A program made the translations under genes and the position numbers. Below, in pieces: positions 18,998 through 52,663 of a stretch of DNA of 64,000 nt. Source of the DNA: Halorubrum sp. CBA1229. GTDB lineage: Archaea > Halobacteriota > Halobacteria > Halobacteriales > Haloferacaceae. Position 1 is the stretch's first letter, and the number at the start of each line of letters is the position of its first letter. A model generated the notes under the pieces. The model had not been told where the DNA came from, did not search any database, and was given only the letters and a program-made list of their open reading frames with translations. The stretch lies in assembly GCF_003721435.2 (NCBI RefSeq), contig NZ_CP054585.1:1302001-1366000 (forward strand). The letters run 5' to 3'.

Positions 18998-19027
18998 CGC
19001 GGCGGCGTTTATAATCAGATGGTGCGA

Positions 19028-19282
19028 TGGCGCGCGCCTGCGAGCGGTCGCCCCCGCGACCGCGAGCAGCGCGTGCGAGGGAGTCGGGTGCCCGGAGCGA
19101 AGCGGAGGGCGGCCGACGAGGCTGGGGAGGCGTGAGGCTGCGGTGCCGTGCGGTCGGGGGAGGACTCAAAGGGGCAGTCGGCGAGGCGGGCGCAGGGGAC
19201 GCAAGGACCGCAAGGAGGGAGCGATAGCGACCGACTGAGGACCGCAGCGAGCGTGCGCCCGCCTCGCCGACTGGGGCTTTGG
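19028..19282 (+). ncRNA. candidate structured RNA, element 1 (covaries with element 2)
   Basis: No protein is supported here. A TATA box TTTATAAT (19008-19015) lies 20 bases before the conserved opening TGGCGCGCGCCT. Helices: P1 GCGGTCGC (19044-19051) with GCGACCGC (19056-19063); P2 19083-19093 with 19107-19117 (one mismatch, one wobble); P3 a perfect 20-pair stem, 19175-19194 with 19254-19273; P4 CAAAG (19167-19171) with CTTTG (19277-19281), closing a GGG/GGG internal loop. Conserved single-stranded blocks are GCGTGCGAGGGAGTCGG, GAGGCTGGGGAGG, GACTCAAAGGGGCAG and CTGGGGCTTTGG. Element 2 at 41022-41359 keeps the blocks and the pairing but changes the stem sequences. A second TATA-like TTTATAAA follows at about 19313. 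Direction is inferred from the TATA box. Confidence 0.6.
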
Positions 19283-19442
19283 CGGAGTTCACCGAATCGT
19301 TGGCAGCAACAATTTATAAACGATCGACAGAGAGGCCGATTTCGTACAGCCTACCACCGTCAACAATAGCGATGGATACCCGACCACATACATCGACCTC
19401 TTCCTCGCGCCCTTTTTGGGCAACAACCCCCTACACGTATCA

Positions 19443-20219
19443 GTGACAGTCACGAGCGTCCACGACCCGAGCCACCGCGAGGCCCTCTGGGAGTTAGAGG
19501 ACGCCTTCGAGCGCGGCGACCTGATAAGCGTCTTCGGGCGCTGCACGGTCAGCTACGAGGGTCGCGCCGCCTCGGACCTCGGCCTCGGCGACCGGCTGCT
19601 CGTGTTGAAGCCTGACGGGGCCGCTCTCGTCCACACCGACGAGGGGCGCCAACCGGTCAACTGGCAGCCGCCGGGGTCGGAGCACCGCGCCGCGGTCCGG
19701 GAGGGGCGGCTCCGGGTGCGCTCGACCAGAAGCAACCCCGACGAGACGCTCACCGTCCGCTTCGACCGGGTCCACCAGCTCTCCGCGATGGCGGTCACCG
19801 GCGGGCGCGACCTCACGCTCCACGGCAGCGAGGAGGACCTCCGGACCCGGATTCTGGAACGCCCGGAGCTCGTCGAGCCGGGATTCGAGCCGCGGGAGAC
19901 CGAGCGCCCGTCGAGCGCCGGCCCGATGGACGTGTTCGGCGTCGACGCCGACGGCACCCCGGTCGTCGTCGAGCTGAAGCGCCGGCGCGTCGGGCCGGAC
20001 GCGGTCGGGCAGCTCGCGCGGTACGTGCGAGCGTTCCGCGAGGAGTTGGGGGCGGAGGCGGACGGTCGCGAGGGCGACGGCGACGCCGAGGGCGACGACA
20101 CCGACGGCCCCCGCGTCCGGGGCGTCCTCGTCGCCCCCTCGGTCACGGATCGGGCCGCCGAGCGGCTGTCGGACCGGGGGTTCGACCACGTCGCGCTCGA
20201 ACCGACGCCCGAGAGGTAA
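19443..20219 (+). CDS. nucS: endonuclease NucS (mismatch/branched-DNA nuclease)
   Basis: The 258-residue protein has an N-terminal DNA-binding half ([40 protein letters not shown]) and a C-terminal RecB-like nuclease core with [20 protein letters not shown], giving the D-(x)n-ExK metal site, followed by QLARYV. NucS/EndoMS cuts mismatched or flapped DNA and serves in non-canonical mismatch repair in archaea and actinobacteria. The start is the GTG at 19443; it follows structured element 1 by 160 bases. An Asp/Glu-rich insertion near residues 205-225 is halophile-specific. Confidence 0.92.
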
Positions 20220-40980: not shown

Positions 40981-41021
40981 GCGGGCGCGAGCGGGAGTTT
41001 GTTTATAAACAAACGGTGCAG

Positions 41022-41359
41022 TGGCGCGCGCCTCCGAGCGGCCGTTTTTAAACGGCCGTGAGGAGCGCGTGCGAGGGAGTCGGTGGTCCGAAGCAACGCG
41101 GAGGACCACCGACGAGGCTGGGGAGGTGAGAGGTGCGGTGCGGTTGTGGTCGGGATGGGACTCAAAGGGGCAGCCGGGAGGACCGCGCAGGCGTTCACGA
41201 GAGCAAAGCTCTCGTGAGCCAATCAGAACGCTTTGCGTTCTGATGACGACGTAAGCAGCGTGGCGCGTAGCGCCACGGGCAGCCGGCGGCGGAGCCGCCG
41301 GCGACACCGCAGGGAGTGAGCGAAGCGAGCGTGCGCGGTCCTCCCGGCTGGGGCTTTGG
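41022..41359 (+). ncRNA. candidate structured RNA, element 2 (covaries with element 1)
   Basis: The element shares blocks with 19028-19282 but not its stem sequences. A TATA box TTTATAAA (41002-41009) stands 20 bases before TGGCGCGCGCCT, the same spacing as in element 1. P1 is CGGCCGTTT (41039-41047) with AAACGGCCG (41050-41058); P2 is GTCGGTGGTCC (41079-41089) with GGACCACCGAC (41103-41113), fully paired; P3 is 19 perfect pairs, 41171-41189 with 41332-41350; P4 CAAAG/CTTTG again closes a GGG/GGG internal loop. The P3 loop holds four short hairpins absent from element 1. After GTTCACCG a second TATA-like CTTATAAACGACCGAC follows, as in element 1. Function unknown. Confidence 0.6.
41195..41302 (+). 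repeat. four successive perfect hairpins with 3-base loops inside element 2
   Basis: TCACGAGAGC-AAA-GCTCTCGTGA (41195-41217), ATCAGAACGC-TTT-GCGTTCTGAT (41222-41244), CGTGGCGC-GTA-GCGCCACG (41259-41277) and GCCGGCGGC-GGA-GCCGCCGGC (41282-41302). Stem lengths are 10, 10, 8 and 9 and sequences are unrelated, so these are separate structures, not copies. Confidence 0.85.
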
Positions 41360-41498
41360 AAGTGTTCACCGCGGAGCCATAGGCAATTACTTATAAACGA
41401 CCGACTGGAACGCCGCCACGATACCCGCTGATATCGTACTAGTCGAACTCGCGATCGCTCCGCGTCATTTAATCGGCTCGCCCGCGACGCACACCGTA

Positions 41499-51913: not shown

Positions 51914-52663
51914 TCACGACAGCGACGCGACAAGCGCGGCGACGGCCTCCGTCTCGTCCTCGTTGATCCCGTGGCCCATCCCCTCGTAGATCCGCTCGTC
52001 GACGTCGGCGCCGAGCGCCTCTAACACCGCGGTCGTCTCGTGGACGCGCTCCTCCGGGATGTGCGGGTCGACGTCACTGCAGCCGAGGAACGCCGGGGTT
52101 CCCCCGAGCGCCGCGGCGACGTCGCCCTCGATCTCGGCCGCCGCGTGCGAGCGGTAGTCGTCGACGTCGATCGACTCGCCGATCAGGCCGCCGCTCAGGA
52201 CCGCGAGCCCGCCGTATCGAGCCGGGTTCCGCGCGACGAACTCGCTCGCGAGGCAGGCGCCCTGCGAGAATCCGGCGACGAGGACGCGCTCGGTCGGGAT
52301 CCCGGCGTCCGTCGCCGTCTCGACCGCGCGGGCAACGGCGCGGAGCCCGGAGCTCCGGCCGGGCTCGTTGTCCGCGACGGGCGCGAGGAAGGAGTTCGGG
52401 TACCAGGTGTTCGCGGCCGCCTGCGGGGCGAGTAGTGAGAGACCGGAGGTCTCTCTGACAGCCGGCGGCGAAGCCGCCGACGAGAGCGCAACGTCGCCGG
52501 CGCCCGCGACCTCCTTGCCGAAGCCGACGATGCTCCGCGCGGTCGCGCCGCGGCCGTGCACGAGGACGACGGCGGCCTCGGCGTCCGCGACGGGGGTCCC
52601 GGCCGTCACCAGCTCCTCGTCGGCGTGGGGGTCGTCTCCCGCGTGAGGCGTCCGGCCGCTCAT
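51914..52663 (-). CDS. carboxylesterase/phospholipase-like alpha/beta hydrolase (MhqD-like)
   Basis: The 249-residue protein has HGRGA (36-40) as the oxyanion side, the nucleophile elbow GFSQG with Ser133, an Asp region in GCSDVDPHIPEERV and the closing His in EGMGHGIN. Its start overlaps the stop of the VOC gene by four bases (ATGA). In Bacillus the pair MhqD (esterase) and MhqO (ring-cleaving dioxygenase) detoxifies quinones; the same pairing is inferred here. Confidence 0.88.
   Translation of the reverse strand: MSGRTPHAGDDPHADEELVTAGTPVADAEAAVVLVHGRGATARSIVGFGKEVAGAGDVALSSAASPPAVRETSGLSLLAPQAAANTWYPNSFLAPVADNEPGRSSGLRAVARAVETATDAGIPTERVLVAGFSQGACLASEFVARNPARYGGLAVLSGGLIGESIDVDDYRSHAAAEIEGDVAAALGGTPAFLGCSDVDPHIPEERVHETTAVLEALGADVDERIYEGMGHGINEDETEAVAALVASLS

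Follow-up and report, generated by a model that had tools for sequence, protein, structure and literature searches.

Two intergenic elements of the window, by which we mean the whole 64,000-nucleotide stretch of Halorubrum DNA analyzed here, belong to a large family of structured repeats. Our preferred explanation, held with slightly better than even confidence, is that they are members of a class-wide, non-autonomous (MITE/REPIN-like) mobile repeat family with a conserved hairpin, P3, as its core. The original prediction described two related RNAs with shared sequence blocks, each close to a TATA box, and direct reading bore out these observations: TGGCGCGCGCCT, GCGTGCGAGGGAGTCGG, GAGGCTGGGGAGG, GACTCAAAGGGGCAG and CTGGGGCTTTGG are common to both elements in identical order, TTTATAA (19008 and 41002) stands about 20 bases before the TGGCGCG that starts at 19028 in element 1 and at 41022 in element 2, and the basal stem of P3 has 20 pairs in element 1 (CAGTCGGCGAGGCGGGCGCA / TGCGCCCGCCTCGCCGACTG) and 19 in element 2 (CAGCCGGGAGGACCGCGCA / TGCGCGGTCCTCCCGGCTG). 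The likeness of the two is far above chance. Both were also detected by R2, a covariance model of P3 trained without either of them, at 19158-19285 for element 1 (84.9 bits, E=2.6e-15) and at 41154-41362 for element 2 (42.4 bits, E=9.2e-7, with a 108-base insert); the E-values of this model and of the model R1 described below are rough.

All parts of the elements are read on the + strand. Element 1 is preceded by the TTTATAA box (19008-19014), promoter-like or a remnant of an element end as judged by sequence, and begins with the P1 domain (19028-19078), in which an outer helix, a tandem GA/GA internal loop and an inner hairpin are formed by pairs that covary among 39 copies from the same genome. 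It continues with the covarying P2 hairpin (GTCGG...CCGAC; 19083-19117), a purine-rich unpaired linker of invariant alignment columns with GAGGCTGGGGAGG, GTGAGG and GGACT (19118-19166), and the P3 module (19158-19285), delimited by the R2 match and by covariation, with CAAAG/CTTTG, a GGG/GGG internal loop, the 20-bp stem and conserved apical internal loops. In element 2, sequence, alignment and covariation place the P1 domain at 41022-41074 and the P2 hairpin at 41079-41113, while the upstream TTTATAAA box (41002-41009) was assigned from sequence, the conserved linker (41114-41162) from sequence and alignment, and the P3 module (41154-41362), its apex enlarged by inserted perfect hairpins (~41183-41305), from the R2 match and sequence. 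The elements as first delimited were a little short: a conserved tail (~19282-19330 and 41359-41400), also conserved in the other copies of the genome, ends in a second TTATAAA box, with the terminus TTTATAAACGA in element 1 and TTATAAACGA in element 2. Open reading frames of the small-gene kind exist at the elements here.

Across the family, the order from 5' to 3' is an AT-rich box, GCGGTGGCGCG, P1, GCGAGGGA, P2, linker, P3 and tail. P1 consists of an outer helix, a symmetric GA/GA internal loop and an inner hairpin, and the unpaired, purine-rich linker carries GAGGCTGGGGAGG, GTGAGG and GCGG repeats. P3 opens with GGGACTCAAAGGGGCAG and closes with CTGGGGCTTTGG, with CAAAG/CTTTG pairing; its long stem is variable, its GGG/GGG internal loop is invariant and the internal loops at its apex are conserved. 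The tail often comprises 1-3 tandem units of ~60 bp with the terminus TTTATAAACGA. Inserted perfect hairpins enlarge P3 and other hairpins in some copies, element 2 among them; those in its P3 (41183-41305) resemble the SMR repeats of Haloquadratum, which are reported to target palindromes (PMC3119063), and a similar hairpin (87.5% over 32 bases) stands alone at window 52459-52490. Two variants of P3 were seen. A second class (L215, L295, L297, L314) has a different conserved apex (CGACCCCTATC...GATATGTCGGT) with unchanged GACTGAAAGGGGC and GGGGCTTTC ends, and in L367:2106-2230 and L126 the apical half runs opposite to the family consensus, as it would after a flip inside the palindromic stem.

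The predicted fold held for the two elements, but the family is not one of two. At the DNA level, element 1 matched dozens of further places in the genome at ~77-86% identity, and R1, a covariance model of the 5' half (P1, P2 and the linker up to GGGGCAG) built from 39 copies of this genome, gave at least 107 matches in it at E<=0.01, elements 1 and 2 being two of them. All 107 lie on the main chromosome (C1; 3,218,340 bp); C2 (~364 kb), for which about 11 were expected, has none. Four relatives hold at least 68-125 R1 matches per genome at E<=1e-5, all per-genome copy numbers being lower bounds. Among the ~150 places listed in Halorubrum-like relatives, a single one is off the main contig (G022:C2:45146-45289), and the copies are nearly confined to the main contig even in G029, about a quarter of whose genome lies elsewhere. 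Within 374 kb of the own genome, every P3 match was part of a full copy. The copies are randomly spread along the chromosome (KS p=0.18; CV of gaps 0.99), and a regular chromosomal spacing is ruled out by these Poisson-like gaps. According to gene calls from a simple codon model, the genes flanking 102 own copies are tandem in 50 cases, convergent in 30 and divergent in 22. As this orientation equals the background, a terminator or 3'-UTR role is disfavoured, and for Halorubrum it was ruled out by the random orientation of copies relative to their neighbours.

The compensatory changes reported for the two elements proved to be real and highly significant, with P1, P2 and P3 all covarying. In a MAFFT alignment of the 39 own copies, 92.2% of cells were paired, compared with 23-44% when the partner was slid, and 20 of 30 pairs had changed on both sides. 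For P3 in 48 sequences, of which 38 came from other genera, the corresponding values were 93.2% and 29-42%, with 28 of 35 pairs changed on both sides; none of 500 shuffles reached the observed number in either alignment, counts that are not probabilities, because the copies are related and exchange modules. Both-side changes affected 347 cells of the class-wide P3 alignment against 103 in shuffles, and one-sided changes 45 cells. A clean double change distinguishes CAAAG/CTTTG in Halorubrum from GAAAG/CTTTC in other genera.

These changes could have arisen at the level of DNA, if template switching and gene conversion at replication maintained the complementarity of palindrome arms and the folded strand had no function. 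The large excess of double over one-sided changes, the low share of G.U (only 3-5% of pairs), the exchange of whole hairpins and the inverted apices of some P3 copies all agree with such a process. However, a strand-symmetric process acting on double-stranded palindromes predicts equal numbers of G.U and A.C, and in well-formed pairs of the same strand the ratio of G.U to A.C was 45:14 for class-wide P3, 42:6 for P1 and P2, and 33:5 for the own P3 basal stems. The folded + strand is therefore selected as a single strand. The internal loops and unpaired linkers are, moreover, conserved across the class, and we consider the palindrome explanation improbable. Of the claim that the elements form a functional RNA structure, the part that stands is selection for a fold of one strand. 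That this strand is an RNA is the natural reading of the fold and strand bias seen in the sequence, and a structure-specific single-stranded DNA would be the other candidate.

The chief rival to a mobile repeat family is a multigene family of expressed, host-beneficial non-coding RNAs, which would be driven by the TATA boxes, fold as P1-P2-P3, act in trans, for example by binding protein, and have spread by duplication and gene conversion. It is favoured by the covariation, by the class-wide conservation of unpaired blocks and P3 internal loops, by the excess of G.U over A.C on one strand and by the near absence of copies from secondary replicons in Halorubrum. The upstream boxes also belong here: 75 of 103 copies have TTATAA within 60 bases upstream, in most cases between -24 and -16 and hence near -20, and AT-rich boxes are found in 78 of 103 copies against ~1% in shuffles. 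The TATA boxes that had been pointed out are accordingly present, but they lie too near and too variably to be persuasive as promoters of a P1-containing RNA; with archaeal transcription starting ~27 from the box centre, the start would fall inside the 5' strand of P1. The variably placed box may instead be an end of the element. Furthermore, several copies outside Halorubrum have no TATA box, the head-to-head P3 pairs described below, with only about 21-36 bp between them, are too closely spaced for two promoters, and the copy number ranges from 0 to more than 100. We regard this reading as possible, at roughly one chance in four. As with structured non-coding RNAs of Rfam, strong covariation is combined with conserved unpaired motifs; unlike them, the family has more than 100 copies per genome that turn over, and the Rfam search proposed for the elements gave no family match at gathering thresholds and noise only at a relaxed threshold. 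Covariation alone is no proof of a conventional RNA gene, because module exchange in mobile DNA can also yield strong covariation.

Such exchange is extensive in the family. Among 64 own copies, similarities in P1, P2, linker, P3 and tail are essentially uncorrelated, and for the four core segments (P1, P2, linker and P3) all values of r lie between -0.04 and 0.02, that is, at linkage equilibrium. Copies that are near-identical in P3 can have unrelated P1 and P2. At site A, the orthologues in G000 and G004 have a P3 lineage in common, with compensatory changes, and different P1 and P2, the P2 of element 1 being entirely replaced in G004. Because copies exchange whole hairpins, many of the compensatory changes are module swaps and not paired point mutations, and the excess of double over one-sided changes fits such whole-hairpin exchange.

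The sites themselves are also subject to turnover. Sites A and B, each compared in 30 Halorubrum-like genomes, carry the element in some species and lack it in others, and the same was seen for further sites in 16 syntenic regions; one intergenic site holds the element in + orientation in G015, G022, G026, G028 and G061 and in - orientation in G005, G011 and G029. At site A (window 18998-19445), a gene of ~55 codons (MNLTAVLHSGFGV...) was found instead of the element in L079, L085, L086, L091, L093 and others. At site B, L129 and L114 contain TTATAA boxes and a tail-like remnant without the core, resembling either a core deletion between boxes or an empty target.

The occurrence of similar stretches in many haloarchaea, mentioned in the original prediction, was confirmed. 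The family is present in all Halorubrum-like genomes scanned, and R1 matches were obtained in 27 of 73 genera of Halobacteria, with 56-89 copies in G077, G178 and G226. R2, which detects P3 alone, gave matches in 220 of the 292 haloarchaeal genomes searched, representing 61 of 77 genera; genomes scanned across the phylum outside the class gave none. Carriers of the family include Haloarcula, Natrinema, Haladaptatus, Halorussus, Natronococcus, Halobaculum and Haloparvum. Outside Halorubrum, P3 mostly stands without P1-P2 (81 P3 versus 20 R1 matches at the same loci), and head-to-head P3 pairs 21-30 bp apart recur in several other genera, with none in Halorubrum. The literature searched, which was thin in subscription journals so that an earlier description is possible, contained no description of the family, no recognisable transcript and, in line with what had been stated, no assigned function.

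The best-resolved ends were found in G264 and G302. G264 contains near-identical 377-bp head-to-head P3 doublets (L434 and L435 are 99.7% identical) with the termini GGTACTGTTTAGATTAGC... and ...GCTTATCTAAACACTACT and the inverted ends GGTACTGTTTAG / CTAAACACTACT. Perfect 8-bp target duplications flank L435 (TCGAACCG on both sides) and L437 (TCAGCGAC), L438 in G302 has the 8-bp duplication GGTGAGGG if one extra G is counted as element, and the flanks of L434 match at 6 of 8 positions. The G264/G302 doublets thus appear to have been inserted with an 8-bp target duplication. Terminal inverted repeats are present in these copies, whereas in Halorubrum only TTTATAAA is found at both sides, with no target duplication beside the TATA boxes (6 of 59 versus 4.3 in controls). 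The family behaves as mobile DNA, because its copies come and go between species, stand in either orientation and, in G264/G302, carry inverted repeats and 8-bp duplications. Against the mobile reading are the main-chromosome restriction, which is unusual for mobile elements, the lack of a Halorubrum target duplication, the failure to find a mobilising enzyme and the absence of a recent full-length twin in the own genome (best 92% over 247 bases). The P3 doublet of G264 could also have been captured by an unrelated MITE.

As in MITEs, the copies are short, non-coding, intergenic and numerous, those in G264/G302 being bounded by terminal inverted repeats and 8-bp target duplications. Unlike MITEs, the family has a core hairpin that is conserved and covaries across a whole archaeal class, its Halorubrum copies are without a clear terminal inverted repeat or target duplication, and it keeps almost wholly to the main chromosome. 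The G264 ends matched nothing in plasmid or viral collections, and no parent transposon came to light. A phage or virus origin was rejected, as phage and viral collections contained no copies; haloarchaeal plasmids gave a few weak matches, and one match, to Streptomyces, is probably noise.

The hairpins could alternatively be archaeal counterparts of REPINs or PATEs, processed as single-stranded DNA by an IS200/IS605-type Y1 transposase. REPINs, or REP doublets with RAYT transposases, are bacterial and have hairpins of 20-40 nt (PMC3116915, PMC8266576), and PATEs, which are abundant in Haloquadratum, share their ends with IS605-type transposons and insert without duplicating the target (PMC3119063). 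The inverted hairpin doublets and the dispersed, intergenic placement of many copies are shared with REPINs, and the single-strand fold also favours this reading. The family resembles PATEs and SMRs in that these, too, are palindrome-rich haloarchaeal repeats without a transposase; in Haloquadratum, SMRs go into palindromes belonging to other elements (PMC3119063), much like the small hairpins nested in family copies. The family hairpin, in contrast, measures ~110 nt and has conserved internal loops. The Y1 transposase is missing from three carriers, G077, G183 and G199, with 56, 43 and 15 copies, several carriers being without a Y1/RAYT gene, and family motifs are missing from nearly all flanks of Y1 loci; it was rejected as the engine on these grounds. 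The best-resolved copies also show inverted ends and 8-bp target duplications, and such duplications are not produced by IS605-type elements (PMC3119063). A Y1-processed REPIN or PATE is therefore quite unlikely. Even less credible is a SINE-like RNA copied by a reverse transcriptase, to which the promoter-like box, the structured RNA-like body and the tandem 3' tail repeats would be suited: no RVT_1 domain was found in any of 13 genomes, including some with more than 100 copies, and the ends in G264 are cut-and-paste-like. This reading is already largely refuted, barring an unrecognised reverse transcriptase.

For the mobile repeat family that we prefer, we hypothesize that each member is built around the P3 hairpin, folding as a single strand, which outside Halorubrum usually stands alone or as a head-to-head pair and in Halorubrum is fused to the P1-P2 module. 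Copies would be inserted into intergenic DNA by a trans-acting protein working on the element ends or on the folded strand, and short-tract recombination at the conserved linkers would afterwards swap hairpins between them. This protein, or a host partner, may recognise the folded strand, be it RNA or single-stranded DNA. More tentatively, with odds well short of even, the family could be a class-wide archaeal counterpart of SINEs and REPINs: a transcribed structured RNA whose fold is kept under selection by a role in the host and whose genes are mobile, limited in Halorubrum to the main chromosome, and continually rebuilt from a common pool of hairpin modules. If the preferred reading is right, ~1% of a Halorubrum chromosome consists of unrecognised structured repeats, which are spread through most haloarchaea and missing from Rfam. 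The covariance model can be used for annotation and the polymorphic sites for measuring mobility, and the family is a natural case of hairpin modules that recombine freely yet retain their fold.

Two further arrangements were observed at individual loci. L213, L216 and L232 each contain two full elements of opposite orientation, their tails facing each other across a few tens of bases. In G031 (L124), a tandem GACGGCGTAGACAGCGTA array stands beside an element, in the first 110 bases past the upstream gene.
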